Shown here one piece after another: positions 16,429 through 38,502 of a stretch of 64,000 bases of DNA (positions are counted from its first letter, which is position 1; every line of letters starts with the position of its first letter). The notes beneath the pieces were generated by a model. That model saw only the letters and a list, made by a program, of their open reading frames with translations, was not told where the DNA came from and did not search any database. The stretch is taken from the NCBI GenBank assembly GCA_950295325.1, contig OX485806.1, forward strand, positions 47,487,169-47,551,168. Reading direction: 5' to 3'. The translations under genes were made by a program, and so were the position numbers. Source of the DNA: Polytrichum commune. Lineage: Eukaryota; Streptophyta; Polytrichopsida; Polytrichales; Polytrichaceae.

Positions 16429-17003
16429 TAAGATGAATTCACAAAAGTGCAAACTCAATTCCATGAATGTACTAACCAATTTAGTAGTAGGGTCCATCAA
16501 TTTCATTTGGAATCATGAACCAAGTTCACTATATAGACAACCAACTTAACTTGAACTTTCAGCCAAATTTATTACATGTTGTGAACAATTTCATGATTTG
16601 GCACCCATATTCACAACTTTACAAAATCAATTTCATGAATTATTTCACAAAGAACGGTACATTATGTATAAGATTCTCCTCATTGTTCCCCCCGACTACC
16701 TCTACCACAATTTTGATTGACCTCTCTTATCCAACCTTGGACCATGTTTGGAGTGATTGCTTGTAAGGCTTCCATAGTTGACCAGTTCCACTTAACCGCT
16801 TACTTGAGTTATGTAATGCCGACATAGACGAGATCTATAATGTTTTGGCGAACAATGCAAAGTTTATGTGGTGGTGACTTGTGATTGATTACCTTCATAG
16901 GATTTTTGATAATTGTCACAGCCAAGGAGTAGCATAGAGATGAGCAGTTATGGGTTAACCTACAAATCGACTTGCTAGAAGGAATCGTGTCCAAATCAAC
17001 CCT
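16429..17003 (+). repeat. Left inverted arm of a putative giant gene-capturing element
   Basis: Bases 16429-16746 match the reverse complement of 38171-38502, for example GTAAGATGAA, CCAATTTAG, CATGAACCAAGTTCACTATA, ACATGTTGTGA, CCCATATTCACAACTT, TTTTGATTGACCTC and CAACCTTGGAC, at roughly 80-85% identity by eye. A second block, 16975-17003, matches the reverse complement of 37331-37359 (CTAGAA, GTCCAAATCAACCCT). The order of blocks is conserved; the spacer is 229 bases here and about 810 in the right arm. TCATGA occurs several times (about 16513, 16590, 16631), as in the right arm. Outer limits and a target duplication are not resolved. Confidence 0.72.
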
Positions 17004-17099
17004 CCTCTGCGGTGATGGCAGGGTCTGTGTCCACTGCCATTCTGACTGTAACCCGCTGTCTGACTGCCGCCGCGACTGTAGTTTGGGTATATGGCAACA

Positions 17100-17360
17100 A
17101 AAGTTGGGTGTAACTTGGTTTACTTGGGTGACGGTTGCCATGTCATCCCGTTCGGATGACCGCCACCGTTTTGGTAGCCTTTGGGTGGCGTTTTTCGGGT
17201 GTCGGGTTTGGGTTTTGGGCATACGGTTGCAAGCGGGTTGGCGTTCATGGGTTGAACAATACACTGCCGAGGGTGGCCACCATATGTGGGTGGCTTGGCA
17301 CCCGTCTTGGATGGCTTGGCACCCATGTTGGGTGTCATTGGCGCCCCCGGGGCACTATTA
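17100..17360 (+). repeat. GC-rich degenerate repeats inside the left arm
   Basis: Rich in GGGTGTCGGG, GGGTGGC, GGCTTGGCACCC and similar words. Related words occur on the opposite strand at 36335-37260 in the right arm. A short doublet, GGCTTGGCACCC then GATGGCTTGGCACCC, lies at 17290-17325. Open frames here are artefacts of GC content. Confidence 0.5.
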
Positions 17361-18211
17361 TTTTGGTCTTTTCCTCTCTTTTCCTTTGATGGGTTTGTAC
17401 TCTCCCAGGGTGTCTGCTACCCAAGCATAACCCGATTTTCCCAGATGAACGGGTTTCTGCACAGACAAGAAGTATTGTTCCATACGAAACCCTAGGGTGG
17501 GAGGGAACAACATTTGCCTTAATTTACACGCAGAAGCTTTATTTGTGACTAGATTTGCCTCATATTTGTGGGTCTAGACCACAATGGGAGATGGCAACCG
17601 TAAGCCTCCCGGTAACCGCAATTGCCATGAACATGCGGTGGACTCACATCCGCAATCCACCTCCTCAACATTGACAGCCAGGCTCCATGGGCGTGTCCGC
17701 GGTTTGGGGGCGTTCCCTGCACACACAATGGTCGCCTGCACAATTGCTTCCCTCAGCGACGCGTGTGGAATCGAGCCACCAGGATGTGCAATTGCTGCAA
17801 GTGAAGATGAGGTTTTTCATCAACAACAGCACGGGCCTCATCCAAGGGCAATCAATCCAGTGGGTTCATTTTCCACCTGATACAGGAGCCGAGCTTATGG
17901 TAGACTTGTGATGCTCGTTTCGGAATTACGTACAGAATTACAGTACTATTTACAATATGGAGCAACATCATATTTCACGCAGGTGATTTCGTGGGACTCA
18001 TCTCCTCTTCTAGGTAGGGCATCATCGAGTCCTGTTTTGAAAGGGTAGGCCAGGAGACAGGCGATGCATTGTTTATCAAATTAGTGACGTCTTGCAAATT
18101 CGTGATTGTCGAGAGAAAATCATTGCAATGAATCTGAAATGTAGATTTAAATTTTACACAACTTCATGGATTATGTTGAACTGGCTCCTGTCTAGGTTAC
18201 AAATTGCTGAC

Positions 18212-19840
18212 CTGCAAGTAGGGGCCCTTGGCAGCCTAATCTCGGGAACTTCCGCTTCCATACTCTGCCCCTGCCAGTATAATGGTATCTTGAACAACAT
18301 CCTTGTATTTTTGCAAAGAAAATTGCAGAGCTACAGTTGTTACAAACAGTAGAGCGGACTAGATGTCTGCTGCTTGATAAGACCAAAGAGAAGAAAGTGC
18401 AGGTCACAGGAAACTCTGTTCATGGCCAAAATGCCTAAAAAACGTTACAAGCACATACCTTACCTGCGTCATATATGAAAAGCTTTTCTTTCGAAGGAAC
18501 GTGTATTGTTTAGGACCAACTTCTCCCTCCAGAAACATGTTCACAATCCGAATGTCTGCAAATGTCCCTCTTGCCATAATTTCATCGTTGCCACGGCGAC
18601 TTCCATATGAATTGAAATCCTTCCGTTGCACTCCCCGCTCCATAAGAAACTTCGCAGCTGCACTGCCTTTGTTGATATTACCAGCTGGAGAGATGTGGTC
18701 TGTTGTGGTGCTGTCTCTAAAATTGGGAAGACAATATGCATCCTTCACAGGCTTTGCGCCAGGAGGAGTTTTTGTCACGCTTTGAAATAAGGGTGGCTCA
18801 TGGACATAGGTTGATTTTTGGTCCCAAGCATATTGAGAACCTTTTGGTGTTGGTGGATTATTCCACATCTGATTGCCACTCGTGGTGGTTTTGTATGTAC
18901 TTTTGAACATCTCTGGAGTCACTGAGGATTGTACAACCTACACAAGGCACTCTTAACTCAAATCAGGGGTCACAACCTGGTTTGAACAAATTGGATGAAT
19001 AGCACCACAACGAATTTTGAAATTTATGTTTAGAATTTTGACTGCATTGTGTGAAAACTTAGCAGGGAAGGCTTGTATACGAGTTTTTGGGCACTTAATA
19101 GTCTTGGATTATGCACCTTTGCAATCCCCTCAGTTGAAGGCCAGATGTCATTCAGAAACACATCCTTCCCACCTTTACCCTTCCCAATAGGTTCCTTAGC
19201 AAAGTCAATATCGACCTGCTTGGGCAAGTCAAGGCGTCGACCAGAACAATTATGATATATATAAATTCTGCTCATGAACAGAGGGTCATAGAAATAATGC
19301 CCTCTGCAAGTCTGTGGATTTCAACCTTTCGTCAACCACGTCTAGAGGACTGGACAAGAAGATGATGTGATTTGCAGTCACCTACCGTCCCAGTGGACGT
19401 GTATGCAACTACCAGAGCAGGGGACGCCAGACAGTTTGCACGTATTAATGGATGCCCTCGACCTTCGAAATTCCGATTTCCTGTGAGAACTGCTGCTGCC
19501 ACGATATCTACAAGCAACACACTTTCCAGCAAATGTTCACTACACTTTCCAAACTTTCACAATGTTTTTGAATCAATCTAAACAGTCTGGTAGAATGTAT
19601 ACTGTAGAACTAGGAAGTCACCAAATTTCCTGATTGCCAGGAAACGATGTCTGCCTATTTGTGCCACTATCTCTTTAAAGACAAAGATTACTTAGAACCC
19701 CAAGTATCGTTCTTCGGTAAAAAAACATATTGTTGCAGTATGTACCATTGGCCACAATTGCTTTGGAAACATCTTCGTGAAGCTCCCCATAATTTCCAAT
19801 ACACGTCGTCCAGCCATAGCCCACAACACTGAACCTTTGT
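18212..19840 (-). pseudogene. ACO: Aconitate hydratase fragment, C-terminal half, broken
   Basis: Five exons in correct order on the minus strand: about 19840-19746 (GYGWTTCIGNYGELHEDVSK), 19507-19386 ([20 protein letters not shown]), 19215-19117 ([14 protein letters not shown]), 18937-18464 (swivel-domain start, with [17 protein letters not shown] and [20 protein letters not shown]) and about 18311-18212 ([17 protein letters not shown]). Most splice sites keep AG and GT. Lesions: the first Cys of the CTTC cluster motif is Trp (TGG at 19812-19810), losing a [4Fe-4S] ligand; a one-base deletion near 18510 shifts the frame just after GPK; and the Trp following SSRD is TAG (18238-18236). The final exons and the N-terminal half are absent. 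A working aconitase interconverts citrate and isocitrate in mitochondria and cytosol; this copy cannot. It is the only fragment of the cluster on the minus strand. Confidence 0.92.
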
Positions 19841-19849
19841 TTCATGTTG

Positions 19850-22040
19850 AACTTTTGTTTCTAATATGTCCTACCAAACATGGACTCCAACTCAATTATA
19901 CGTCCATTTTGGGGTTTTTCTTCTTTAGCCATTGCATATGCGTATCACCCCCCCACTTACGGCTCACATGTACATGTATCCATTACATTCAATTGTCGTT
20001 TTGAATATGTATTGATGTAGGGAGCATACACAACTTACAAGGTTCCTAAACTCCCAAAATTGGGCACTAAAACCCTATTTGTGTCTCTTCTAACCACTGT
20101 TTTTGCTCCATGGACTACATGGTTCTGACCATATGGGGTTCAACACAATCTGCATGCCAAAGTGTGCGTTTAGTATTATGCATGTGCAGGAACCTTTGTC
20201 CCGTGTTGACCTACTCTAGGCATGTTTGAATGGGCATGCTGGATAATTCCATGGCTTGATCAAGTTCTATGTGGCTTTTGACACCGATTCGTATGAAAAC
20301 CCAGCCATACCATAAACATCGAGGCTGGCTATTGGCATAAATTTTGAGATTGCAGGAAACATGTTTCCATGCAGGTTGTCGCTCGCCAAAATTCCAAATG
20401 GGATGGACCAAGAACATGCACGTGCATTTGCTTTTCCGCTCTCCCTTTTGTTTTTACATGCACACTGGTTGTTTGTGAATATTATTAAGTACAAGAACAT
20501 GTAGTCTACCTACTTCAGCCACAAATATTTGTGGCTGCTAATAAGTCCATATATGCTCAATTGACGAAATTGTGACTAATGCGGGCAAAATCACTTTGAA
20601 CGCACAAAATGTGCCATTGTGTAAATTACACAATAATGTCCAATCATCATTGGGTTCTTAGCAAAGAAATATGAACATGATCAGGTGCCTCGCGGGCTGC
20701 AAGTACTTCTGATGTGTTGTCCGCCCACACGGTTGCCCATGTGGGTGACAGTCACCAAACATGGTGAATGTGGCACCCACCTCAGCCATGTCCTCAGCTA
20801 GGGTATTGTATGTGCCTAGGTTAATGAGTTATATGCGTATAATCCTTCCCTCGCATGAAGAAGTCCTCCACGGCTGCCTGCCTGGGATTCTTTGGGCGTG
20901 CCAAATTATTGCGGCACGCTAACATTGGAGTTGTCCAGGTGAGTAGAGAGGTCGAGTTTCTTGGTGCTGGCTTCTTCCAACCTATATTCCAATGCATTGA
21001 ATGGAGAGGGCAATGCGAATTGAGGCATGCAGATGAGGGAAGAGGAGAGGTGGGAGGGAGCAATTGCGACCAGGGGATAGGGGGATTGGGGGGCCAACTT
21101 AAACGACCAGGGGCAAGAGGATGCGGAAGGCAAAGCGCATGCGAGTGTTTGTGGAAGGAAGGGAGGACATAGAGTGCATCAGGGATTGTGGAGGTAGCGC
21201 GCATGACGGAGGAAACGTAGAGGAGGAAGGGAGTGTGGAAGAGGGAGGGGGCATTCTGGAGGAAGGCTTTGTTGTGCAACAACCAAGCACCTACGAGGCC
21301 GACGCAACAAACGTGTGGCAAAGGTTCAGGAACGACTCCAACTATTATTGAGTGCAAAATCCAGCATGTGGATTGGATCAATTTCTTGGGTTTTGTTATT
21401 CTTGGGTTGTGGGTGTTCTCTCTTTCCGTCCGCCCGAACTGGAACCATGGAATGTGGTAAATGGTCACCCGCACAGTCACACCTGCCTGTTCTCCTCCAA
21501 ACCCTAGACCTAAAAACCTAATTCTCCTTTATGCAACTTGTTTTGACGCCATGTTTTGGAGGAATAGCAGGTTGGGAGCCCCCATTCCACTATTTTGTGT
21601 GCGGTGCAACCGATGCTTGCATTGTTGTATGTGTGTCAAGTTAGAATTTGCTTGTTGGAGGAAATTGTGGGTTCTTCGGGTACAAACCCAGACAACCTCC
21701 TCAAACCCTTATTTGTTGTCCACCTTTCGTGATGTCTGGCTCTGAGGGTGACAAGATTGAGCATGAGATTGTGGTTGGAGGGGGAGGGTTTGAAGGTGGT
21801 GGAGGTGGAGAATGAAGGAGATGTTGGTGTCCCAGTCAATGGTCCACATTATCACTCTGTAGAGTAGTTTTGAGAGGAAGATTCGAGGCTTTGTGTTCCT
21901 TTCGAGCAATTATCAGAGTGCATGATTATCATGTGGATGAGGGAGTGACCGTTCTGGAGGAGAGAATGCAAATTGGAGGAGGAGGAGGAGTTGGCTTATG
22001 GTGGACAAAATTGCAGAGTAGAGCACCAGGAGAAGGAGGT
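19850..22040. other. Spacer between captured fragments, no gene recognised
   Basis: Open frames at 20855-21480 on both strands are compositional (G+A-rich strand). A G-rich stretch at about 21770-21840 recurs at 27320-27395 (see separate entry). I recognise no exon here; 20267-20417 minus has mild coding character but no identifiable family. Confidence 0.4.
21770..21840 (+). repeat. G-rich segment duplicated at 27320-27395
   Basis: Both copies read GGAGGGGGA-GGTTTG, AAGGTGGTGGAGGTGGAG, GAATGAAGGAGATG and TGGTGTCC in the same orientation, with small indels. They lie 5.5 kb apart inside the gene-fragment cluster. They may be related 5' regions of two captured genes or an internal duplication of the element. 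Confidence 0.65.
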
Positions 22041-22071
22041 GGAATTTTCTTGGCGACCTAGGTTAGCGCAG

Positions 22072-23704
22072 GGCAAAGTGTCCCCTCGCTTAGCAGTTCC
22101 TAAGGAAATTGCTCGTCCTCCTTATGTTAATTTCAAGAAAGCACATGCGTTCCTTGATGATTATCAAATACAAAATACTGAGGGAATAGAGCGCATGAGG
22201 GCCTCTGGCCGCCTGCCGAAGGCCGCATAGCGCTTGGATAGGTGACATTCCTAGCAATTGATTCCCACCACTATGGTCCACTGAATTATAGTGAGAGTAT
22301 CCTAGTGAAACACATATTTTCAACCAACCATGTGGGAACCTGGGGGATTGCGCCTTATTGAGGGAGATTAGGGAGATTAGGCCTGGGTCGGCTTGTCCAT
22401 GCCCGTTCAAGGCGTTTACCCTTAAAAAGAGGCAGGAGTCTTCAAGGTCCCTCTCATCCTCGTGATGTCCAATTTGGAATGATATGTACAATTAGACTAA
22501 TCTGAAGATGAAGCAACACCATATTTCACACTGTCATCGGAGTCATCTCCCTCTCTACGTCTACTTCCAAGTTGTGAGTTTTCCACTCACCCATTTCTGA
22601 TGTCAAATTCTTTAGCATTTTGCATATCCCCTGTAACACCTTTAAGTCTGATGCGGTGGTTGCAGCCAGGTGTGACAACGGACGAGATCGATAAGGTTGT
22701 TCATCAGATGATCATTGATGCTGGTTCTTACCCTTCTCCTCTCGGCTACGGTGGCTTTCCCGAGAGCGTATGCACTTCTGTGAATGAGTGCATCTGTCAT
22801 GGCATTCCGGACTCTCGTCCTCTCCAGGTTTGTTCCCCTTTGGACCTGCACATGAACTTCAAAATAGTTAAAAGGAGCTAACAAGTTTACCTAGCCATCT
22901 CAAATTCAAATGCAGAAGTACACGATGGCCTTGATACTAGAACATTGGTAGGGATGGATGCTTTCCTTAGTAAAGGGAGGAGACCATGGAAGTGTATGTG
23001 TTTAAGGACGCATGACCTTACTGCACATGTTTTATTACGCGTGAAGCCTATGCAAAGGGCTTGTCTTTAACCTTCTTATCAAACATGAAGGTTATCACAT
23101 GTTTGATAGCTTTTAGTTCTGTTTTTCTTGTTAATAATGGGGAGGTCTGTGCAGGATGGAGATATTGTCAACATTGATGTAACAATGTATTTAAATGTAA
23201 GCTTTCTTTTCTTGTAATCTTCGTATGAACTGTAAACCTCAACTTGAATTTTCCTCTCCAGCAACATTTGTCTCCCAGTTTTTCTCATAAACCTTAATAC
23301 TACACTTCTGTTGAATAGAAGGATGTCAGACAGTTATGTGGAGCTGGAGAATAGTTTGTTGTTGTCATTCTTTGCAACAAAGTCATTTAACAAGGTCATG
23401 CTGATTGTAATGGCATAGCAGCGACTTTCTTGTGACTGGTTGTTTGTAAGTATGAGTGTGCTTTTACATTGAAGTGATTTTGTAAAGACTATTTTGAGTT
23501 TTCTATACTGTGAAATATGTTGGTAAATTAAGTTCTCTGGCCTGCTCTCCAGCTTGCACGACATATCTTGCTCATGTGAACGGTGTTGTGAAGTTTTAAA
23601 TGACCTCAATTTTGTGACATGATGAATGGCAGGGCTAGCATGGAGACACTTCAAAGACTTTCTATTGTGGGATTGTGGATGATGATGCCAAACAATTAGT
23701 TGAG
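22072..23704 (+). pseudogene. MAP1D: Methionine aminopeptidase 1 fragment (organellar MAP1 type), broken
   Basis: Exons: 22072-22241 (GKVSPRLAVPKEIARPPYV, then NTEGIERMRASGRL), 22666-22827 ([20 protein letters not shown], then [20 protein letters not shown] and [11 protein letters not shown]), 23155-23196 (DGDIVNIDVTMYLN) and 23633-23704 (HGDTSKTFYCGIVDDDAKQL). Metal ligands Asp (NIDVT) and Asp (HGDTS) and the substrate-side His (CHGIP) are present. In-frame TAG stops lie at 22228-22230 and at 23636-23638, where the Tyr of the G-Y-H-G-D motif is expected. Later exons with the remaining metal ligands are missing, and the first two exons do not join in phase, so an exon is probably lost. Intact enzymes remove initiator Met in plastids and mitochondria. 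The plastid/mitochondrial subtype is a judgement from the [11 protein letters not shown] region. Confidence 0.88.
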
Positions 23705-24794
23705 GTGGATAACTGTTTTTATGACCTCTTTAAACTCTTCCCTTGGATTATTTTCATACATCTGCTTTTACTTGCTTTGTTTTGATGCCTTTTGGAAGGT
23801 TTGTCACTCCACACTTTTTTTTGATCTGGAGAGCAGATTCTAGTTCCTAATACAAATTTAAGGTGAGTGCAATTAATTGTTCTACCTTTTTTCCTTTTGG
23901 GGGTTGGAGGTGGGCATTAAGTGACTATTACAAGGTTTGTAGGATTGTCAAAGTCTCAACAAGTGGATGTAATGATGTAACTTCCATTCCAATTATATTT
24001 ATTTTCTCAGGGATATATATGCAACTCTGATCCTCGTAGCTGCATTGGTGTAATGTTTGCAGGAAGAGTATTGTCGAGAAGAAGTCTATAGGCGATGAAA
24101 GCAACTTCTGGCTTCTGGTGAGGCCACGTTGCCTGTGCTTTCTTGACCATCGGATTTGACCGATGTAAGCCTCCTCCCCTGATCTCCTCTGTTCCTGCCA
24201 CCACTCATCCACTGCGTGTGCAGACAGATAGACAAAGAAGACAGACAGACACTCACTCTCTTCACCTTCCCGATTACGATTTCTTTGCCGATTCTCTTCG
24301 CCAGAGGTCATACTTATTAGAGACACAAACTGTAATCAAGCTGGAGAAGATGTCCAACATGTGGATTTCTTTGCAATGGACTATGGAAATCGATGTATGT
24401 AGGTGATTTTGAGATGTATCGAAGGATTGCACATAAGAGTGGCCTGTTGAATTATTTGCGTGATGTGATGGTCCTCCAGCTTAGTTTCCTCTTAAACCCT
24501 AAACCTTTCTGCACCTGAAACCCTCAATCTAGAATTTGGCAGTGGATTCGGCCTTTTAGATCCTTCTTACAGAGACCGGGAGCTAAGAATCGTGGGTTTT
24601 CCCTCTACTTTGGTTGCAAAGTGATTACCAATTAGTCAATTTTAGCAGGTTCATGTGGCTTTTCAGTTGCTTTGAAAGTAGAAGGTTGTGCTGAAGGCAC
24701 GAAGGGTTGCATTATCGTGGAATTACAGGAGACGCTTGGGTGATACAGAAGTCACAAAATGTACTGGATGTTGTTGTTGTGGTGGTGGTGGCAG
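23705..24794. other. Spacer between captured fragments
   Basis: No exon recognised. A first exon of the DnaJ gene might be expected here, but I could not identify one. GAC/CAGA-rich sequence at 24215-24255 is low-complexity. Confidence 0.35.
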
Positions 24795-25218
24795 GGTTCC
24801 AACTTCTGCAACGGCATCGGATATCAAGGAGGCCTATTACAAATGATCGCTTAAACAGTATGTGATATTGTGCAGCACAGTGCATTTGACCTTTTACACG
24901 CCAATTTTACATCATAGATTGATAAGTGGCATTTGTACTTACACGTTGTATTGCAGCCATCCAGATGAAAATTCTGATCCAGAGACCAAGGAGAACTTTC
25001 AAAAAATTGCTACTGTTATTGAGGTACTCAAGCGGAATTGTCATCCTTCTTCCTGGATTCTGCATTTGTGCTCCAAATTGGCATCATTGAAGGCTTATGC
25101 TGGGCAGCTTGCTCCAAGCATAAATTCTGAATATGGTTGTTTTTTGGTGTTTGGCTAGATCTTGAAAGATGAAGTGAAGCGGGAACAATATGACTATGAG
25201 ATTGCTCATCCAGAGGAG
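24795..25218 (+). pseudogene. DnaJ50-like J-domain protein fragment, broken
   Basis: Three exons spell most of one J domain: 24795-24857 (VPTSATASDIKEAYYK, stop, SLK), 24957-25023 (HHPDENSDPETKENFQKIAT across the junction) and 25159-25218 (ILKDEVKREQYDYEIAHPEE). The HPD motif that stimulates Hsp70 ATPase is intact and split by the first intron; the usual HPDKN is HPDEN. TGA at 24844-24846 interrupts helix II. The ...YDY-IAHPEE ending is typical of the DnaJ50/DNAJC25 group of membrane J-proteins. The N-terminal signal and helix I exon, and all exons after the J domain, are missing. Donor and acceptor dinucleotides are conserved, so this is a genomic copy, not a retrocopy. Confidence 0.86.
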
Positions 25219-27439
25219 GTTAGCCACGTCTTTTCCTCAGGGCCATCTTCAGATTGAATGTGTATATGTGCACGCTAGTCTAGTACATTTGAGGTACATT
25301 TGAATACTAAAATTTTTGTAGGTCCATCAATCAGATAGGGCCAGAGTATTTGGGCTGCTCAATCCTTTGATGTAGGTTCCAATTAGAGATAGTTACGGTG
25401 AAGTCCTTGGCATTCCGGAATCTAAGGCCTCATGACCTTTATACTCTGGTCCAAATTCATCAATTGGGTTTTGAGACTTGTTTTTGCAAAACAAATAGTT
25501 GTGGTTTGGTGCAGTTCTTGTGCCAAACTGCTAGTACTATCAAGCTTACAGTCCCCAAGCAGTATGTGCATTTCTCATGTTACCACCCAGTTTTGGATAC
25601 CGAAGTTGGAGTTTATGAAATTCTTGCTTCAGAATCGTTAGTTGCCTCCAAATGCTATCTTTTCGTTGTGATCCCTGCAAGAATTAGTAGGTGATGCTGT
25701 GTCGATTTTTGAGTTCGTCAGAGTAGTACTTCTTCGATTTCTGTCACTTGTATTATTGGATTGACGGTGCATAAATTCATCACAAGAGGAAGCTCTCACT
25801 CATCGTCATATCATCACACACTTATTTGTCACTCCAATCCATCAGGTTTAGGGTTTAGCATCCGCTAGATTTTGCACTCTACAGCGTCTTGCATAATTCA
25901 AGTGTAATTCTGTAACATGAATGTGTTGTGTTGAAAAAAATTCATTGAATTTGTTGGTTCCTCGTTCCAGGAATCGCCACTGCTAAATTGTCAGTGAAGC
26001 ATCATGCAGGTATTAATTCCTCTTTATCATCTTTCAACTCTATGAATTACCTCCCAGCATTGTCCTTAAGAGTTCTTTCACCTTAGTGTAAAGCAGGAGA
26101 CAAACACACTCTGAGCGAGAGGACCAGATTTTCTAATCCACACATGGAATTGTGCTCTCACATGGCAAGCCAGTAAACATCAACAGTCAACTTGAGCATC
26201 TACAGGCGAAGTATGTTGGAACTGGGCATGCTGATGTCAATCACTTGTAAGTGTACACATCTCCTTGGACTAGACATTCCTGTTGTCATTGTGCAGGACT
26301 TATATACTTATGGATGAAGACAATCGGAATGTGTACTTGTGCATGTATATTGCACACAGTGCATGCATGTCCATATCAACAAAGTAGCTTGTGCTACAGT
26401 ATTCGTATTAGGCCGCACATGTAACATTCAGGTCCCTTAAGTGGAGAATTCTGAAGTTTTTTGCACATTTGATTTGAAAGCTGGTTCAAATCTATAAGTA
26501 TTTATTATTTCTTTTTCATTGTTGCAATTCTTCTGTATGATTCTTTGGTGGGGAAACTTGCACATATGATTATGAGATGGACTTCTTAGGATGATGAGAA
26601 GACAACCCACTGTGTAATTCTTCACCCATTTTTCTTGCCTCATTCTTGTGCAATTCTATTGGGCATAATCATTTTCCATTATTGACATCATTGTCCATAT
26701 TGACATTTTCCAGTTTTTCCGCCATATGTTTGATTTTTTTGCGAGTCCTCCTCATATTGTAGTCTTCTATATGAACCTATGGTTGATATCACATGCAGTC
26801 ATGGAATTCTTTACAATATGCGGCACATAGTTATGCTGTGGTTTTGGTGTGGTGGTGTCTTGGTGAGTCTTGTGAGAATGTAAAATGGTCGTTTACGCCG
26901 TCCAAGAGGTTGTCCAGATCTATATGCCAGTCCGAATTTGGTATGGACAGAGAGAGCGCGCGAGCGAGCGAGAGAGAGATTCAGGGGGGGGGGGGTTATT
27001 GTGCCTGACTACCACAAGTTTTGATCTTGAATGCCATAGTAATGGCAATCACGGGTCTGCTTGCAAATGGTCTGTGGGGACTCTATTCCTCTGCAGTTTC
27101 TTGAAAGGAAACATCACTTGAAAAAAAGGACTTGCTATGTCAGCCTTTCAGCATCTTCGGGGTTGTTTATGAAGTCTGCAACAAAGTCAATAGTTTTAGA
27201 GCGAGCATCATTAAGCTCGGAAGACAAAAGTGCACTACAAAGAATTCGCGTGTGTCGGAATGGGGCTTTGCGTGTGGGAGGGGTCAGGTTAGGGTTCCGT
27301 GGAGGGTTCTGTGGTCGGACGAAGTTGGAGGGGGAAGGTTTGGAGGTGGTGGAGGTGGAGGTGCAGAATGAAGGAGATGCTGGTGTCCTAGCACCTAGAG
27401 TAGGTTGAAGATTTGAGAGAGAGAAAGAGAGAAGGCCGA
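25219..27439. other. Spacer between captured fragments
   Basis: No recognised exon. Contains a GAGA/GCGA simple-sequence tract and a run of G (about 26948-26995). The minus-strand open frame at 27581-27135 overlaps the duplicated G-rich segment and is not supported by a domain. Confidence 0.35.
27320..27395 (+). repeat. G-rich segment, second copy of 21770-21840
   Basis: Same-orientation copy of the segment at 21770-21840, ~80% identical by eye. It lies immediately upstream of the coiled-coil fragment. Confidence 0.65.
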
Positions 27440-29234
27440 TTGTAGGCATCAATATGTGTGCGAGCTCAAGGGGTAGATGGTGAGGCGTTGAGACAGCTTC
27501 AAGAGATTCTTCGTAAAACAGTGGATTCACTGATGGCTCCTCTTGATGGAAGACGAGCTGATGAAAACTATCACAGTCCAATAGCTAAATGACGGGTGTC
27601 AGCCCTCTCCGAAGATGCACCTGAGTTTCTAGCTCAACAGTTGCTTGGAGAACTTGAGAAAGCAGCTGCAAAGGTAGTCGAGCGTTTTAATGAAAGAATG
27701 TACCTTTCTCTTGCTCTGTTTGGGAGAAGAAATGTCTACGTTCCAATTTAGATCGAAGCCCTTGCTGCAGCTTCCTTTTCCATCTCCATGCTGCTTTCTG
27801 ATCTATTAAACAACATATCCAGAGGGTGCACCTGTACTAGTACTGATGTGAACCCTCTCTCGTTTGTAAAGGTTGCAGGCATGGAGAGCCAGATGATCAG
27901 CTTGAAGCAGTATGTGCGCGAGACTGATGCCCAACGTGAGAAAGTTGAGCTCAAGCTTGCAGAGGCCATAGCTCGTGATCACCAAAACCAAGTGATTCGA
28001 GAAAGCTCGTCCTTTGGAAATAATTGTCGATCCCTCAATTTTGTTCATGTGGTGATCTAACTTGTCATTGTTTACTAAGTTTCATTCTCTCGATTGCAGG
28101 AAAAATTTGAGCGTGAAATCAATGAGCTAACGAGGCAGCTTCAAGAGAAGGAGACAGCTTACGATGACTTGGTGCGCAGTCAGAAGGTTGGATGCTCTAG
28201 AATATCTTTTACTTCCACACAATGTAGAGACAGAATCTTCCAATGTCTTCAATACTCTCTACGTCCCACGGTTTTGATCTGCTGGCCTTGAAGCAAAGTG
28301 TCAGAAATGTTTTATGGGGGAAGATAGACCACGGTCCCTTCTTTGTAATTATAAAGGGGCTAGAACAAGTATTTCTTACAAGCATTACAAGCATAAGGAG
28401 AGCCGATTACAGGAGCGCATGTGGACTATAGGATTTATATTTTGCTGGTTGTAGCAGAAAATGAAAGTTACCGTTAGCAAGTTTGACAATCAAGGCATAG
28501 TCTTGAGTTTCACGAAGGGAGACTTCTTAGGTTGCAAGGTGCGCACAGAGATCTGAAATTATCTTGGTCTGGCAGGTGATGTTCCAAGTTAAGTCAAAAG
28601 AGATAGCTGAATTAAAAGAAGATTGCCAGAGGCGTGATGCAGCCCTTGATGACATTACGGCTGCTGCCCAAGCAACCCAAGAAGCAAGTGATCAAGTAGT
28701 TTCCCAACTTTCACACTCAATTTATCCACCCCCTTGACGTGCAATATGGATTTAATTTTCTTGCTTCAAGTGAATTTTTTAGGGATCATCTTACACCTCG
28801 TTATGGCTGACTCTTGTGGTGGCTCTGCTTCTGTAGAGATTGGCAGTACTGGAGGATATTTGTAAACGCAAGGACTCAGCAATATATGAGCTAAAACAAG
28901 AAATTATCGCTCTGGAGAGCAAGGTCTGCTTCTCATCTCAAGTTGGAAATCTTTTCTGCTTTTGCTACACTGCAAAATATTTAAGGGATGCAAATGAACT
29001 GTTTGTTGTCATCGCAATCATGTTTTTATCACGAATCTCACACAACCATCTCTTCTGATTCTTTTGCTGTTCCAGGTTCATGACCCCAACATCCGATCTC
29101 CTCTCTATTGCGGTGACAGGAGGCGAAACTTTAAAGCAGTCCCATCTTCCACTGAAGAAGTCCTAGCCCTTAGAACATACATTCAACGAAATCTCGCAAG
29201 AACATACTTGGACCCGGCCATCGTCACCCATTGA
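27440..29234 (+). pseudogene. Coiled-coil protein gene fragment, C-terminal part
   Basis: A run of exons with good splice sites: about 27480-27673 (LRQLQEILRKTVDSLMAPLD, later EDAPEFLAQQLLGELEKAAA), 27751-27869 (uncertain), 27879-28005 (MESQMISLKQYVRETDAQRE), 28101-28186 (EKFEREINELTRQLQEKETA), 28577-28700 (VKSKEIAELKEDCQRRDAAL), 28838-28923 (LAVLEDICKRKDSAIYELKQ) and 29076-29234, ending with SPLYCGDRRRNFKAVPSS and TYLDPAIVTH before TGA. Heptad-like Leu/Ile spacing with alternating Lys/Glu marks long coiled coils. TGA at 27590-27592, after SPIAK, interrupts the first exon. I do not recognise the family. It could be a cytoskeletal, flagellar or nuclear-periphery protein. Apart from that stop the later exons look open, so a shorter product from an internal Met is conceivable. 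Confidence 0.6.
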
Positions 29235-29332: not shown

Positions 29333-29535
29333 TAACATTGAGGTTAATCCTGCTATCTTTTAGTGGCACGCGTGTACAGACAACTGCCGATTGCTTTTGG
29401 GGGGAATAAGGCTATGTATGGGGAATTTGTGTTTGGCATTATTGACATTCAGGTTGATCCTGCTAGCTTTTAGTGGTTCTCGTGTGGATGCACTGGCCGA
29501 TTGCATATTGGGGGAGTAAGGCTCTGTATGGATGA
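29333..29535 (+). repeat. Tandem duplication, two ~100-bp units
   Basis: Unit 1 (about 29333-29432) and unit 2 (about 29443-29540) share TTCAGGTT/AGGTTAATCCTGCTA, CTTTTAGTGG, CGTGT, GCCGATTGC, TTGGGGG and AAGGCT-TGTATGG in the same order. Located between the coiled-coil fragment and the polymerase fragment. Confidence 0.75.
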
Positions 29536-29599
29536 TTTATGAAGGGTATTTTTGACTGCCTATGCAATGCATCTTGCGGGGGTGACACTACATTTGCAG

Positions 29600-29710
29600 T
29601 GTTTCAACAGTTGGTAATTGACTACGTTGTTGGTGAAATCCACAAGGACCCATGCCCTTACAGGAGTGGACCTGCTGCAGTGCTGCGAATGTTCGGAGTC
29701 ACCCAAGAAG
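29600..29710 (+). pseudogene. POLD1: DNA polymerase delta catalytic subunit, single-exon fragment
   Basis: One exon between TTTGCAG and a GAAG/GTGACA donor encodes FQQLVIDYVVGEIHKDPCPY and GPAAVLRMFGVTQEG. This matches the N-terminal region of POLD1, just ahead of the conserved VCCHVHGF segment, which would start the next exon and is absent. Insert length and the Ile-Asp-Tyr / Gly-Val-Thr pairing favour polymerase delta over zeta (REV3), which has a similar N-terminal start. A 37-residue exon without exonuclease or polymerase motifs cannot function. Downstream sequence to 29853 is open by chance only. Confidence 0.75.
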
Positions 29711-29859
29711 GTGACACTTGCCTCCTCCTCGATTCTTGGTTTCCGATGATTCTGTTAGCTGAGTTCCGGTTGTTTCTTGATTGGCCAGGTTTTTCTTCCA
29801 AAAAATTGAACTCTATGAACATGCAATTTGATGTGCAATATTGCAGAGTTTAGATTCTG

Positions 29860-30638
29860 GTTTTACCCCACCAAAATGTCATTGTCAATACGGTATTTGT
29901 TCAAATTTCAGGTGCAGGGTTTAAGGATGAAATGGCACCCAAGTCTCCACACATAAGGAGTTCGAGGCCCATACTATTCACTTTTTCCTTAGTTTCCTAA
30001 AGACCTAGCTTATGCTCTGTTGCATGATTGTGATACACTGAAGTCACACAAGCACCATGACACATTTCTGGAGCCATTGAAGATTCAATGAAAGATATTC
30101 TATTATAAGCTTAAAAGAGATTAGCCTTCAAAGGCAGACTGGACATATTCTCAACCTCTCGCATATATTTATGCGAGAGAAGGATTATCACACATGAAGA
30201 AACAAGAGCTAAGCATGTTGATATCTGATATTTGAGACAATTTCCATAGTAAAGTTATACTCCATGTGTCGGAGCCACTCCATGGCGAGCCCCGGGAATT
30301 TTAGGGGATGCTTCATGTGGATATTCTCGGCTTGTCTACAGTTGGAGCTACTGCATGACTTGATATGAGATCTTGAGTGGGATCATTACGTTTGGAGGAT
30401 TGACTAAAATGTATTGCCTATTGTACGATTGAAGAAGAGGGACGTGTGTCGGCTCCACTCACTTCGTTACTATACTTTTATTCCCCATATTACAATTTAG
30501 ACAAAACAATATGTACCTTAGCATTCCGGTCACAGTTATCGCTCCAGTTTGTTGAATAACCTTAAACAGCCTCGAGTTCATAGGGTTTGGTAAGATTCTG
30601 ATATTTCATACTATTTGGTGATATGGGTACCAGGGAAT
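29860..30638. other. Spacer between captured fragments
   Basis: No exon recognised on either strand. Confidence 0.35.
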
Positions 30639-31047
30639 ATGATGCGTGCCTGGGATGGAACTCTCTCAGCTGCGGAATTTAAGAAGGCGGCAGTGCATCT
30701 TGTGAAGGTATGGGAGCGGCACTGCCCTAATTCTCCACCTTGGACCTGGCAGCGGAGGCAGCAGAACCCTGTGATTTCCCCACTTGCACACGTGAGTACC
30801 GAGATGGGAATCCCCGAGGAATGAACTCTTTAATGCCACATACAATTTTCTTCGATATAATGTTGTTTCATTCAGCTTTCTCTGGTGAGGTGAGATGAAC
30901 AATTTGTGATACGGTCTTGGCAGCCCTGTTGCTGCAATTGTGGAACTGTGACCTTACAGCCAAGGACTTCAAAGACTAGACAATGATGATGAAGGTAGTG
31001 CAGGTTGGGTGCAGGTTGTGGGATACTTGGAGCTTCAAGATGTTCAG
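30639..31047 (+). pseudogene. ATG10: ATG10 (E2-like autophagy enzyme) fragment, N-terminal exons
   Basis: Exon 30639-30791 begins with MMRAWDGTLSAAEFKKAAVH and continues VWERHCPNSPPWTWQRR, the plant ATG10 start (WDG-LS---F, later PPW-W). Exon 31015-31047 reads VVGYLELQDVQ, the following GYL-LE segment. The catalytic-Cys region (HPC) and everything after are absent. Donor GTGAGT after 30791 and acceptor GCAG before 31015 are intact, with no stop inside the two exons. Intact ATG10 transfers ATG12 to ATG5. The next exon-like block belongs to a different gene (UTP20), so transcripts starting here would be chimeric. Confidence 0.82.
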
Positions 31048-31077
31048 GTGAGAGGATACTGAGAGGTGTTAACCAGG

Positions 31078-32493
31078 TGTTTGTGGTAGAGAGTGAGGTG
31101 GCAACAGGTAATGCTTTATATGAAACTGTGGAGGAGGGCCTGGATGTGCTTGAGAAACATCCTAAGGGAGAAGCAGGGTCTGTCAGGTCGTTGGTGGAAA
31201 GGTTTCTACTCCCACATGTTCGCAATGGAATGGCCTCAGAACTGCTTGTTGTGAGAAGGGTAAAACACCAAACACATCACTCAATTTGCATAGTTGTCAA
31301 GGACTGCAGGGTGCTGATGATCAATTGACGATGTGATATTTCTCGTTGTATGAAGTTGACTTCAATTTTGACTTCAGATATATGTATATATCTATCTATC
31401 TATCTATCTATCATTTGATCAGTGTTAGGATCTCTGGATCAAGTCTATTTTGACAATCATCTCAGTAACACAAGGGCTAGAATGGCCCTAAGGAGTATTT
31501 ATGGTGTGCAACTTATAAGTGCAAAAGCAGACTTCTGGAATGATGTATGAAGTTGAGTTCAGATCCTAACAAATCAACAGGTTCAATGTGGTCATGCAAC
31601 CAGGATGAATATTTTATGCATAGCATTGTCTTACAAAGTTTAATACTGCAGGAGTGGGTTGCCTTACTACGCGAGATGGCGTTGCATTTTACAACCATTC
31701 CAGCCTTGAATGAGTACCAATGCCTCCTGAATTCATATCTAGAAGTTGACTTCTTCAACAATGTTGTGCACCTTCAGGTTAGCTTACGGAATTTATACCC
31801 TTCATGCAAGTGTGAAGTATCTCCTGGTCTAATGTTCAATACATTCATTGTGAGGGCATTTCAATGTGTGAATTCTACTAATCATCTGGTGCGGTGGCAA
31901 GTTGGCTGCTTCCAGTTGGAGTGGTAAATAGGTTGCATGGACTTTCATGCCTGCAGTCATTTAGCAATACAATCTAATGAATATTTATTTACTTGAGGAC
32001 GACAATGCTGACAAATGCTCAATTGTATGCAGATCCATAGAAGAATCAAGGCTATGACAAAGTTCAGGACTTTGTGCTCCTCTGGACATTTCTCTCAGGT
32101 AAACTGCTGGGATTTTCTGGAGGATAATATTCTGAAGTCCTTGGAACAATTTTGTTGCCATTTTTCGTCCATGTGATGTCATTTCTAAGTTGTGTATTCT
32201 ACGTTCCTTTTTTGTCCAATTTTTTGAATTATTCGATTTTGGTCGTAAAACATGCACTCTTCAACAGTATCAATAAGAGTGTGGCCTTTGATTTGGGAGT
32301 GAATGATTGCAATCCTGTTAAGATTGCTTACTGCTTATGTGGCCTTGTCCAGGGGGCACTCTTGAGGATTTTTGTGCCCCTGTTCATGAACCCCATCGTC
32401 GAAGCAACTGGTGACAAAGAAGGAAATCTTGTGGGGTCTGCTATAGAGACCATCGCCTGTGTTGCTAAGCAGTTGCAGTGGGAGGAACTAAGG
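31078..32493 (+). pseudogene. UTP20: UTP20 (U3 snoRNP, HEAT-repeat) fragment
   Basis: Exons about 31078-31259 (YETVEEGLDVLEKHPKGEAG, then LVERFLLPHVRNGMASELLV), 31652-31777 (EWVALLREMALHF, then VDFFNNVVHLQ), 32033-32098 (IHRRIKAMTKFRTLCSSGHF) and 32353-~32493 (LLRIFVPLFMNPIVEATGDK, then IETIACVAKQLQWEEL). D-FFNN--H-Q-HRR--A--RFR and IFVPLF are hallmarks of the central UTP20 region, an 18S rRNA-processing scaffold of some 2500 residues. This is well under a tenth of the protein, with no start or end. The four exons are open with good splice sites, so decay is less advanced than in the aconitase copy. The assignment of the first exon is the weakest. Confidence 0.78.
31390..31412. repeat. (TCTA)n microsatellite
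   Basis: About six TCTA units, preceded by ATATGTATATA, inside an intron-like stretch of the UTP20 fragment. Confidence 0.85.
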
Positions 32494-32591
32494 GTCCCTA
32501 GCTCCTGACTTGTAGCTCTTGGAACATATTCTTGGTTCCTCTTCCAACATTAAGTGTTGACTACTTTGTGACTTGATAAATATTGGGACAG

Positions 32592-35500
32592 GTACATGGA
32601 CGGAACAAACCTACGGCAGAAGAGGTGGACTATGATGCTGTAGCAGAGATGACAGATGGTATGGTGGGAGCCCAACTTGCGAATATTTTGGATGTAGCAG
32701 CCCTTGCTGTACTGAGGGATCGACGCCCTGAGGTTGGTCGCAAATTCCTGAGTTGAAGTCTTTGTGAGTTTGGTGAGCCTTGTTCAAAGGTTTAAAATAT
32801 GATGTGCAAGCTGTAATTTATTTGAGCTTTTGAGATACCGTCATATATTGAGGGAGGTTTGACTCTCCTTTCCTGTAAATACAATAAGTTGGGCACTCTG
32901 AGGAGTTGTTTCTAGGTATTCTTCATATGTAATGTTCTATCACAGCTTAACTATAAGTGCCTAAGAGGCCCAATCCAGGTCTCTTTGTCCATGTATACGT
33001 GTGTTTGAGCTATATACTTCCAATTTTAGCCAATTGTGTCAAAATGACCCTGTCTAAAATTAACTCATTCTTCAAGTACACTTTTTAAATTGGTTGAATA
33101 CCTTAATGTTATTGAAGATTTGGGTTCAAATACACAGCCTGGGTGGCATTGGATGCAAGTATATACTCAGTATATTCATTGTTAAATTCACATTTGAGTA
33201 TATTTCGATTTTCTCCTTGACATGAGATGATTTATAAAATAAGTTCAAAACTCATAAATATAAAATGTATGATTTCTAGACTTGACGAAGGCTTGCAGAA
33301 ATTGTGTATATGGCTGTACATTGAGCCATTTGGTCCTTCAAGGGTTAAGCTACGAGTCATAATGTGACCCAACTTGATCTCTCTAATCTTGTTTTGATTC
33401 TGTGAGTATCATTTGTACTGTTCTTACATGTGATTTGTTTGTTGGTGTCATAGATTACCACAGATGACTTGCTGGAGGCTGCCCAGCTGCAGGAAGGAGG
33501 TCACCGTGATCCCCGTCCTCGAAGTGACTATCTATTGTGGATGCTTGCTTTAAATGAGGCTTCAATGGCAGCCTTCGCTGCAAACTGCCCAGACTTGAAG
33601 CAGATTCAACTGGTTTGTTTCTCGAGTTCTTAACTCAGCACTTTTTTTTGGGATATGTTTTGACACAGAGAGTTATCCTTTAACTCCATGGGACTTTCCG
33701 TCGGGAGTGGGTCCCCTCTGATATTTCATTGGCGGTTTTGCACACAATATCCATAATTTCTTTCCACTTTTGGTGCATGCTCAGAGGTAATGTTTGAATT
33801 TGAATGAAGAGCAAGCTGTTTCAGTTCATTGAGGGCCAAACTCATTTTAGCATCTCTTGGCATGCCATATTGAGTTTGACCCTTAATGAATCAATATAGA
33901 ATGTTCAAACCTCCCACACTAACTCCAAGCATGCACTGAATACTTACCGAACATGGAAAGTGTTGTATGCAAGACAACGAAGTCCTGACCAGAAGTCCCT
34001 TGGAGAAAGGATAGTTATAATGCATCCCTGTAAAGCTTTGTGAAATTCTTCAAACCTCCCTTTGTTTTCTCCTTCCTTTTAGTTGTTATCTGCATTATTA
34101 GGGTTGCAATTTATAATATCTATCTATTTTATTAGCATCCTGCTGACTGCACTGGGTATGCCAGGGATTCTAACACCAAAATACTTTTTGCAGGTCACAA
34201 TTGTGCCCAGGATAGGAGAGGAGAAAGGTGCAGTCAGATTCAGGACTGACCACACCAAATTTGAACTTCAATCTATCAGGTATTTGCAACCTGCTCGGGA
34301 ACACAGATATATAGAAACAATGTGTTTAGACTGGATCCTAGTTGAGGGGTATAGGATGGCGGAAGTGAAGCATATTTGAATCTTAATTATATCTTATCAG
34401 TGAAATCTATCAGGGTTGGGAATAACCAATGCTTGCAGCCATAGGTTCAGTGATGAACACATATATATGTCTTCGCATTCTTGGGACAGATCTAAAGATA
34501 TATCTGCAGGTTATTGATATTAGAAGAAAGACCGCTTTGAAATGATAAATATAGTGTTGCTTGGCAGAGGAACCAAATCATTAAGTATTTGCATGTACTG
34601 AAACTTGACTTCAGTCTGAAACAATAGTGTGCTGGAGGTCTTGGCAATGTTTCTACCCAACTTTAAATTGTGTTGTTATACAGTCGACAGGGAATGCTTG
34701 ATTACATCACAGTTCAGCTTGCACCTCGAGCAGCGGATGAAATCTGGAATAGTGTTGAAAATGTAATCTTCATTCCATTTTTGTATTCCATAATTTTAAT
34801 TTGACACTGAAAGGCTGCTTTTGTAGTACAAATAGGACTTATGAGTAGGATTAGCTGACCTTTACCTTTCCAATCCCAGATTGCATTTACTGCTAGAACA
34901 TTTTAATTGCCGTACATATTCTTCAATTTTCCAATTTCTCAATTCTAAAATCTGATCAAATATGCTGTGATGATCTCACATTCTGAAAGTTTATGTTTGC
35001 AGATGAGCACAATATGGGCCGATACAGTTGATCAAGCCCGTGCTACCGCTCGTGACTTTGTGTTTGCAGGACTTTCCGAAAAAGGAGATCTGTATGGTCT
35101 ACACAATTGTGTGTACAACTATGAATCTGTCATGGTATGTTCCTCTATTTTTCATGAATCCAAAGCTAGAAAACGTTGTGATGAATTATGTAGAAGTTGT
35201 CTGACAAAACCTGGAAGCCTTTGAAGGTAGGGGTGGAAATTGTTGAAAAACCTTATTGCCTTATATTGGAGAACACCCACTTTTGGCCTATTCCTGAATA
35301 ATTAATCTTTCTTTTTCACCATCTAACCCTAAGTGTGTGCTCCTGGTTATGTGCAGTCAGTGGACATTGAGGCATTGAAGGTGATAAAGCAGTGCTATGA
35401 CCGTGCTATTGAGGTATAGATTTTTTTTTCCTGGCCTTTTTATCTGAATTTCTTAATTGTGAAAGATTCAAGAATCTGTGATTTATAGGATCATTGTGGA

Positions 35501-35736
35501 TAACATGATTTGTTGGATGTGTTTGGCAGTACTTGAAGCGGAACGAGAAGTTAGTGAACAAGATAGTTGAGGTGTTGGTAAAAGAAAGAGTTATTTGACA
35601 GGCCGAATTTGCAGAGCTTGTGGCAACATATGGGAACCTTGACACACCTCAGCCTACACCACTGGAAGTGAAGAATCGTAACCTTGCATCTTTTCAGGAA
35701 GGCATGATTGCTGAGAAGCGAGCCCTCCGAAAGTGA
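32592..35736 (+). pseudogene. FTSHI2: FTSHI2-type inactive FtsH fragment (C-terminal part), one nonsense codon
   Basis: Seven exons: 32592-32732 (VHGRNKPTAEEVDYDAVAEM, then DGMVGAQLANILDVAALAVL), 33454-33612 (ITTDDLLEAAQLQEGGHRD), 34194-34279 (VTIVPRIGEEKGAVRFRTDH), 34684-34763 (RQGMLDYITVQLAPRAADEI), 35003-35134 (MSTIWADTVDQARATARDFV), 35357-35413 and 35530-35736. They cover the AAA+ lid and the degenerate peptidase domain to the natural C terminus. The zinc site HEXXH is replaced by LNEAS, as expected for the FtsHi group, so this loss is ancestral. TGA at 35596-35598 (probably from CGA) truncates the last 46 codons. Walker A and B exons are missing. Intact FTSHI2 belongs to the plastid inner-envelope FtsHi/Ycf2 protein-import motor. 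The first exon starts only ~100 bases after the last UTP20 exon. Confidence 0.88.
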
Positions 35737-36334
35737 AGGAAACTCATTTTCCAGAAACCAGTTGCTTTACAACTTGTATCAAGTGACCCAACTTGTATTA
35801 AGATCATCCACAGTATTTTTTCACATGGAATTGATTGATAGGGATGCCTTTACTTCCAGCCAAGGTAGTAGTTGCAGAGAGAGGTATTAGTGTGTTGGAA
35901 TACTCCGGCAGTTGTTTTGTTCCATGCAGGACTTGAAAATTTAGGTGAGCATACGGTAGTCATAGCATGCACCAACACTGAAACATGTTGGTTTCCCCTG
36001 ATCCAACTGCAATATCTGTAGAATTAATAGAGCCATTTGGAATTTTGACAAGACTATTCTTCTTGGACACATTTTTTCCTTGGAAGAGAGGTGGTGGCAA
36101 TCTTTTAGATTGCTGTTGTTAATTTTGAAAAAGCAGTGTGAAGTAACTGTATAGCACTTGGTGTTCCTGTGATTTTTGATTCTGGCAATTAGGATGTTCT
36201 TTCTGATGGAAGTGTAGTATAGAAAATGATGTTGGGTTGACAGCATTGAAATAGACTTTGAGATGGAAGTGGAGCAAAAGCACCGACAGTGGAATTGTTC
36301 TGGTAATGTGAGCCAATAGTTATCATCTCAAAAT
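35737..36334. other. 3' flank of the last captured fragment
   Basis: No gene seen. Probably the native 3' flank of the FTSHI2 copy carried with it, followed by the GC-rich right arm. Confidence 0.35.
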
Positions 36335-36625
36335 AGTGAACCACCCAACACCACCCGACATCCACCCGGCCCCCACCCTGCCACCCACGACGCCCACCTG
36401 ACACCCACCGACCCCCACCCTGTCACTGAGGACGCCCACCCGACTCCCACCTGACACCCACCATGTCACCGAGGACGCCCACCCGACCCCCACCCGACCC
36501 CCACCCTCTCACCAAGGATGCCCACCGACACCCACCCGACCCCCACCCTGTCACCGAGGATGCCCACCCGACCCCCACCGACACCCACCCGACCCCCACC
36601 CTACACTAACACGTCAACACCCATG
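36335..36625. repeat. C-rich minisatellite (CCACCCGAC / CCCCCACC words)
   Basis: Irregular tandem words CCACCCGAC, CCCCCACCCT, GTCACCGAGGA(T/C)GCCCACC and CACCCACCGAC. A longer unit (~60-65 bases) beginning CCCTGTCAC-GAGGA-GCCCACC recurs near 36418, 36463, 36504 and 36547. Strong C/G strand asymmetry. Reverse-complement words occur in the left arm. Confidence 0.75.
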
Positions 36626-37359
36626 CCCGAGTGAACACTGGGCCACCCACACACACCGAACAACCCTAAACCCATTGAACGCCACCCACTGACGGGTAAC
36701 GAATTTCACCTATTTGGTCACTTGCAAGCCGACGTGGCATGCTTGGATAGGACAATCAGAAGCGAAACCAGCAGTGGTGTCCATGGGGGTGAGTATCCAC
36801 CCGAATGTCACCTCCGTGGGTAGCCTATACCCGACCCGACACCCAACCCGGTTTATGGTAGTGCAATATGCCACCCAATATGTCCACCCTCGGCCGGTTA
36901 GTTCGGTGACCGGTATGCGAAACCCGTGAACGGGTAACTTGTCATACCCTCCATGTACTCTAATGTACAACGTGTCAACACATGATAGGTGGATGGCATG
37001 TGTGCACCCACAACGGTGGCCCTCTTGGTATGTCCACCGATTCGGGTAGATGATGCGCACCACAAAGCACCCAATTCCGGCGCACGTCACCAAGAGGGCA
37101 CCTACCCAATGTCACCCTAAACCCAATCCACCCCACCCATTGTGGTAGAATGGGCAAAGGGTATGCATCACCCTTGGGATGGGGACCGTCACCCACAGAA
37201 GCCCCAAAGGTGTGAACAGAGGCATTTTGGGTCCGTCACCCTGCTTTTAACTAGGCCATCAAGATTGCACCGACAAACCACTACCCACCCATACCGGTGG
37301 CCTTTTACAGTGAAATTCCTGCTACCCTGCAGGGTTGATTTGGACAGGATTTCTTCTAG
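36626..37359 (-). repeat. Right inverted arm, inner GC-rich part
   Basis: 37331-37359 is the reverse complement of 16975-17003. The GC-rich stretch to its left contains GTCGGGTCGGG, GGGTGGCG and GGGTGACGG words (minus strand) shared with 17100-17360, but order is not conserved. Open frames such as 36710-37093 are compositional. Confidence 0.5.
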
Positions 37360-37879
37360 TGACTATGTGTAACCCCAAATTTTATGCATTGAAATTTGTA
37401 GCAATTTTCCATATGCACTTCTTTTTTTTTATAATAATTGCATTCTAAAAATTATTTCCCACTGTTACTCCTCCCAAACAAATGCAAACTCTCTTATTTT
37501 ATCAGTTATAGATGCCTCTACCTCACATCATCATTGATGTGACACAACTAGACAAGGTACTCTAAACATGCTATGTCCTTTGCTCACATGGCCACAATGA
37601 AATTCACAATCACACTACACTCTCAAATCTACAAGATTGTGCACTCCAACTACATTGAGTTTGTGTTGCTTGCTTCAATGTATAGTGTTCAAAGACCAAA
37701 GAAGAAACCGCACTACTTGCTTCCAACTTTGAGGTACTATAATGAAAGACCAAAGAAAAACCAATGTCAAGGCTATAGCCTTCAATGTAAACACAAGAAT
37801 AAAGAGGAACCAATGAACAACGAGAAGGCCAAGAATGTGAAAGGAGGGTGCAAGAATTGAGAAGTTGAGAATATGAAAA

Positions 37880-38502
37880 CTACATAGTGCAAAAAGATTT
37901 ATGAAATTGGTTTGGAAGATTCATGAAGTTGCTAGAGGTAAATGTCCACTATCATGAAATTGAGGTGTGCCACATGTCATGTCGGTTTGGAAGAATCATG
38001 AACCAATTTAGAACATTCATGAAATTGGTAGAACATTCTCATAACATTGGCTAAACGTTTCATGAACTAGCTTGGAATTTTCATCAAATTAAGTTTGCAC
38101 TTTTGTGAAGTCATCTTACCAAAGGAGTATTAGGTCACATTAATGATGATGTACACATAGTCAGTGTAGACATGGGTCCAAGGTTGAATAAGGGAGGTCA
38201 ATCAAAATTTGGGTAGAGCTACTAGTGGGGAGCTAAGAATGTGGAGCAATTAGGAGAATCTTAGACATGATGTATTGTTCTTTGTGAAATACAATTATAC
38301 AATTCATGAAATTAATTTTGTGAAGTTGTGAATATGGGTACCAAATCATGAAATTGTCACAACATGTAGTGAAATTGGCTGAAGGTTCATGTAAAGTTGG
38401 TTGTCTATATAGTGAACTTGGTTCATGACTCCAATGCAATTGATAGAACTTATTGCTAAATTGGTTTGTACAATCATAAAGTTGAGTTTCCTTTCATCTT
38501 AC
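37880..38502 (-). repeat. Right inverted arm, outer part, with TCATGA array
   Basis: 38171-38502 is an inverted copy of 16429-16746. The adjoining 37880-38130 consists of loosely repeated GAAATTGGTTTGGAA-ATTCATGAA words, with TCATGA or near matches at about 37920, 37954, 37987, 38010, 38058, 38301, 38346 and 38421, plus a second partial copy (38068-38120) of the CTTTGGTAAGATGA...ACAAAAGTGCAAACT segment seen once in the left arm. Such subterminal short repeats are typical transposase-binding arrays in TIR elements; here that role is inferred. Confidence 0.7.

Follow-up and report, generated by a model that had tools for sequence, protein, structure and literature searches.

How did pieces of about nine host genes come to lie side by side within some 20 kb of moss DNA? 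The question is raised by a window of 64,000 nucleotides from Polytrichum commune (assembly GCA_950295325.1, contig OX485806.1, positions 47,487,169 to 47,551,168), whose own numbering is used here throughout. The original prediction had seen in it one mobile or formerly mobile element of about 22 kb, bounded by inverted arms of about 330 bp and perhaps belonging to a new giant class. We conclude that the 20,389-bp stretch between 16973 and 37361 is very probably a non-autonomous Pack-CACTA transposon of the En/Spm superfamily, with host gene pieces lying between CACTA-type ends. The central part of the prediction, that a single formerly mobile DNA element carries fragments of several unrelated genes, is thus supported by CACTA-type ends, subterminal repeats, a duplication of the target trinucleotide ACT and a left end that is dispersed elsewhere. 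CACTA elements are described as having terminal repeats, 3-bp target site duplications and subterminal repeats (PMC5105172, PMC2613891).

Ends and boundaries of the element

The left end is a terminal inverted repeat (TIR) of 31 bp on the plus strand (16973-17003; TGCTAGAAG), which starts TGCTAG and is identical at 27 of 31 positions to the right end, a 31-bp repeat on the minus strand (37331-37361) that reads CACTAGAAG inward from outside and begins CACTAG. At the core of the pair is an inverted match of 29 bp at 93% identity (16975-17003 with 37359-37331), which two more bases extend to 31 bp. Both termini are bordered by ACT, at 16970-16972 on the left and 37362-37364 on the right, and the two form a 3-bp target site duplication of the kind made by CACTA elements. 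Inverted 31-mers matching at 27 or more positions were found in none of 200 dinucleotide shuffles of the sequence between arms and cargo; the best real pair matches at 28 of 31.

The position of the left edge can be read from copies elsewhere. An open reading frame (ORF) that runs across the left end (16933-17427) matched 10 proteins from 25 candidates (13 contigs; E 2e-76 to 1.7e-20), and the matched ORFs are unlikely to be real genes and instead reflect repeated DNA. Half of the ten (P0124, P0126, P0127, P0128 and P0130) cross the edge, and in all five the similarity starts at the predicted first codon, the CTA within CACTA; the residues that precede it are S, S, T, A and S, as from NCA codons, which agrees with a left end of CACTA in these copies. 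Their flanks, which run to 35, 40 and 11 residues before the CTA codon in P0126, P0127 and P0130, differ from one another and from the window, save for one isoleucine in P0127. Because five crossing copies share this edge, we set the left boundary at 16973, which leaves the arm, ending at about 16760, outside the element. The family copies imply that the left terminus would originally have been CACTAG.

Inward from the edge, homology between the copies and the window extends to about 17574 in P0127 and P0133, and perhaps to 17602 in P0131, which delimits a left subterminal region (16973-17574, plus strand) common to other family members. Its counterpart on the right (36330-37361, minus strand) includes an array of tandem repeats (36.35-36.6 kb). 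In the first 528 bp on the left (16973-17500), the motif GGGTG[GT]C is found six times forward and never in reverse; the 1032 bp on the right have nine reverse copies and no forward one, and the other 62.4 kb of the window have 13 copies. The two regions have 40 9-mers in common, against a median of 12 over 1928 random segment pairs. When aligned, the GC-rich ends show a weak similarity, with a score of 82.5 where 50 mononucleotide shuffles reached at most 70.5; it was not used as evidence. When both subterminal regions were compared with the window by blastn, no internal second pair of ends, which might have been the scar of a fusion, was found inside the element.

Several observations weigh against assigning the element to the CACTA group. 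Within the window the CACTA motif is present at the right end only, the left end being TGCTAG, and agreement over 3 bp by itself would arise by chance once in 64 cases. Two of the edge-crossing copies, P0124 and P0128, have just 2 and 4 residues of flank, serine is encoded also by AGY codons, and the other five of the ten copies start within the element and have no bearing on its edge. Dispersed copies with different flanks, a feature of CACTA elements, were found for the left end only. Pattern scans for the terminus in viral and prokaryote contigs only, where plant DNA is unexpected, turned up no other copy of the right end, and neither the arm nor P0124 had a match there. The 40 common 9-mers were equalled by five of the 1928 random pairs, and the subterminal regions are rich in GC. 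Since GGGTG[GT]C was picked after the words common to both regions had been viewed, its counts are descriptive and do not amount to an independent test.

The element originally proposed would be larger, with the arms of about 330 bp as its ends, and would found a giant class of Pack-TIR elements. That the arms are homologous, inverted and placed around the gene cluster proved correct: the left arm (16418-16760, plus strand) and the right arm (38080-38505, minus strand, its end repeated once more at 38080-38129) form a true inverted pair that aligns between 16451-16747 and 38489-38170 at 81% identity over 322 bp (E 1e-82). However, the separate 31-bp termini of CACTA type, with their matching ACT duplication, lie inside the arms, and the similarity of the five edge-crossing copies reaches outward only to 16973, about 210 bp short of the left arm. 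Mutator-like elements make a target duplication of about 9 bp; no exact word of 6 to 11 bases is common to the sequences outside the arms (16370-16440 and 38490-38560), although, with the arms diverged by 19%, an old duplication may since have been lost. The inner repeats, the duplication and the edge in five copies led us to reject the arms as termini. The arms are therefore probably not the ends of the element, and a giant Pack-TIR is very unlikely. We infer that the Pack-CACTA element sits between two older inverted repeats; the 19% divergence of the arms fits an age greater than that of the cargo, although arms of this kind may have differed from the start. An inverted repeat around an insertion can evidently pass for the ends of an element. 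In the right flank near the outer arm (37870-38510) there is also a loosely repeated unit of about 22 bp, TAGAACATTTCATGAACATTGGC.

Captured gene fragments and their decay

The gene pieces between the ends were identified by six-frame Pfam scans and by comparisons with solved structures (PDB), and exon pieces other than those of aconitase were mostly delimited by eye. The first piece, and the only one on the minus strand, is an aconitase fragment of several exons and introns (18195-19842; PDB E 1.3e-45, with further exons also matched). On the plus strand it is followed by four exon pieces of MAP1, which encodes methionine aminopeptidase (22053-23715; E 2.5e-21), and by three exon pieces of a DnaJ-domain gene (24796-25219), whose Pfam E was 1.1e-6 in the six-frame scan and 1.6e-14 on the joined exon pieces. 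The 5' part of SF3B5 (26004-26247, plus strand), with a start codon and an intron seen by eye and then a partial exon, is a ninth fragment that was absent from the original list of eight genes; its Pfam E is 2.6e-5, yet it scores 24.7 bits against a cut-off of 27, and the PDB E is 0.0015, so the identification is a moderately firm one. Further along the plus strand are about six exon pieces of a coiled-coil gene (27434-29233), for which no Pfam family exceeded the cut-off, a probable POLD1 exon piece (29602-29721), whose best PDB match is a weak one to residues 97-135 of the DNA polymerase delta catalytic subunit (E 0.37), and an exon-like ORF (30633-30790) that is probably the predicted ATG10, a name that was not confirmed, there being no match in the PDB or Pfam comparisons. 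The plus-strand series ends with four exon pieces from the middle of UTP20 (31029-32493), which when joined match residues 1514-1650 of the 2785 in chain 7mq8_SP in order (PDB E 2.6e-10), and with seven exon pieces of the 3' part of FTSHI2 through the stop codon (32587-35735), found in three plus-strand frames (8.5e-9, 3.1e-6 and 5.9e-12) and matching an 876-residue chain from residue 588 onward.

Five of the nine pieces are thus firmly identified, SF3B5 moderately and POLD1 weakly, and two carry the names given in the original prediction alone. Among the eight genes named there, aconitase, MAP1, the DnaJ gene, UTP20 and FTSHI2 gave significant matches, but POLD1 was weak, ATG10 matched nothing and the coiled-coil piece fell in no family. 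The pieces that match structures are partial, as with UTP20 and FTSHI2. Introns, which had been claimed for every fragment, are kept in seven of the nine, each of which has more than one exon piece; for aconitase this rests on a comparison with a genomic ORF, P0007, and for the others on inspection by eye. Inside the element, a direct repeat of about 65 bp (21774-21835 and 27324-27391; 85% identical, rich in GGAGGTGG) is possibly low-complexity sequence common to two captured pieces.

P0007, an ORF of 222 residues on another contig of 8,425 bp, matches the window along an aconitase exon, the intron that follows and the next exon in a non-coding frame. The gene pieces are copies of chromosomal DNA, unspliced and decayed. 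In the exon, 13 of 120 residues differ between the window and P0007; in the window copy the frame changes at about 18509 and a nonsense codon lies in the next exon. Stop codons interrupt other pieces too: several in frame in MAP1, one in the DnaJ piece, one internal in the coiled-coil piece and one internal in the last FTSHI2 exon. Among the 120 aconitase relatives listed, of 3303, two named flowering-plant sequences match at 70 and 71%. In a leave-one-out count, the window differs at 9 of 84 aconitase columns that are otherwise invariant; the named flowering-plant sequence P0030 also differs at 9 of 84, so the count is not clean evidence of relaxed constraint, and the frame change and stops are the better evidence of decay.

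Eight of the nine pieces lie on the plus strand (two-sided binomial 0.039, with three weak or unconfirmed pieces counted), and this bias would suit a Helitron that had captured gene fragments mostly in one orientation. Helitrons move by a rolling circle and have neither terminal inverted repeats nor target duplications. The presence of CTAG at the end of both terminal blocks and the capacity of maize Helitrons, with 0-12 fragments and lengths up to 20,874 bp, speak in the same direction. A terminal inverted repeat and a target duplication are nevertheless both present here, and in 17.9-36.8 kb the scans detected neither a helicase nor a Rep domain at E up to 1, although non-autonomous Helitrons lack these as well. 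We rejected a Helitron drawn from the CTAG of the two blocks, given the duplication and the longer motif CACTAG in the right block, and we regard a Helitron origin as extremely improbable. For the Pack-CACTA reading, the same scans of 17.9-36.8 kb, taken to a limit of E 1, detected no transposase domain, as expected of a non-autonomous member of the group. We give scarcely any credence to a decayed duplicated chromosome segment whose neighbouring genes were partly deleted: it would account for the mostly single orientation and the retained introns, but transposon ends, a target duplication and subterminal repeats bracket the cluster, and the flanks at 38.5-53.1 kb and 1-5 kb hold no host-gene domain, in a scan that detects about half of the pieces.

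Assembly of the cargo and kinship with known elements

A sequence of events can be proposed for the Pack-CACTA element. A transposase supplied from elsewhere would have moved it; as in En/Spm, the terminal repeats would be the target of TnpD and the subterminal repeats that of a TnpA-like protein. The cargo may have been acquired stepwise, most likely through repair of the excision gap in which the template was switched to other loci; we favour this route because UTP20 and FTSHI2, within about 100 bp of each other, are both truncated at their joint. For the entry of cargo, the literature points to a mechanism put forward by Rubin and Levy, which is reportedly one of interrupted gap repair. A review gives fusion of neighbouring Pack-CACTA elements as a route, with other mechanisms possible; such fusion would be an alternative here. 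The element would then have inserted between two older inverted repeats, duplicating ACT, and later decay may have changed the left end from CA to TG and brought stops and a frame change into the cargo. Mobilisation in trans by proteins that act on terminal and subterminal repeats belongs to CACTA biology as described before (PMC5105172, PMC2613891).

Comparison with elements already described places the P. commune element within a known range. The Tpn1 family of Ipomoea nil has 339 members, which range from 161 to 40,619 bp and average 7,081 bp, among them non-autonomous CACTA elements with TIRs of 28 bp, duplications of 3 bp, repetitive regions next to the termini and a captured genic interior (PMC5105172); the likeness is one of description, the plant is another, and some members there bear a transposase whereas none was found here. 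Tgm-Express1 of soybean also encloses exons and introns of unrelated host genes within CACTA ends, and these are spliced into transcripts, but it carries five fragments in 5.7 kb as against about nine in 20.4 kb here (PMC1947982). Nearest in size is Tgmt*, likewise of soybean, which at 20.5 kb has imperfect CACTA TIRs, a 3-bp duplication and asymmetric subterminal repeats but, unlike the element described here, its own transposase gene (PMC2613891). Gene-rich Helitrons of maize reach 12 gene fragments and 20,874 bp (PMC3288121). Helitrons as a class differ in the rolling-circle movement and the lack of TIRs and target duplication noted above. On wheat chromosome 3B, 140 CACTA capture events are recorded.

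The suggestion of a new giant class therefore falls away: size and cargo are within what is known, with CACTA elements of 20.5 and 40.6 kb, a CACTA element with five fragments and Helitrons with 12 already published. With about nine pieces in 20.4 kb the element is large, but its kind is already known, and it appears to be a large example of the CACTA carriers of gene fragments described before. We claim no record for it, since the portions of the literature searched state no record gene number per CACTA element; those of PMC8903248 that were available likewise gave no maximum size or gene number. Among the titles listed (12 of 125) in a search on CACTA gene capture in mosses, none dealt with it. 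Our findings suggest that about nine host gene pieces, introns included, can fit between CACTA ends, as compared with the five in Tgm-Express1, and the terminal sequence can now be used to search the whole family. It is conceivable, if rather unlikely, that the element belongs to a CACTA family, perhaps of a plant lineage outside the flowering plants, that routinely assembles exons of many unlinked genes into long arrays, mostly on one strand, which might act as exon-shuffling cassettes and yield spliced chimeric transcripts.

Surroundings of the element

Outside the element, six-frame Pfam scans of 38.5-53.1 kb and 1-5 kb found no host-gene domain and only retrotransposon gag, a fragment of which lies at 46740-47147 (Retrotrans_gag, E 4.9e-8). 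The stretch at 53-64 kb was covered through chosen ORFs only and 5-17.9 kb was left out; the absence of host genes is a soft result because the same type of scan caught only five of the nine pieces inside. RNE, which the original prediction gave as the only intact gene, lies outside the element; its long exon at 8748-10904 has relatives at 93, 89 and 75%.

Other repeated DNA is present in the window. A Mariner/Stowaway-like element at 56536-58465 has perfect inverted ends of 33 bp (start TACTCCCTCCGT), which suggest a recent insertion and resemble those of plant Stowaway/mariner elements. At 56865-58045, overlapping frames encode parts of a transposase, in which DUF7769 and HTH_Tnp_Tc3_2 domains are recognised. 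ORFs on the minus strand at 54331-56010 resemble by eye the remains of RNase H and reverse transcriptase of a long interspersed nuclear element (LINE), and nothing in them exceeded the Pfam cut-off. Tandem repeats lie at 62827-63156, 5233-5806 and 45743-46116, with spacings of about 59, 94-100 and 46 bp.

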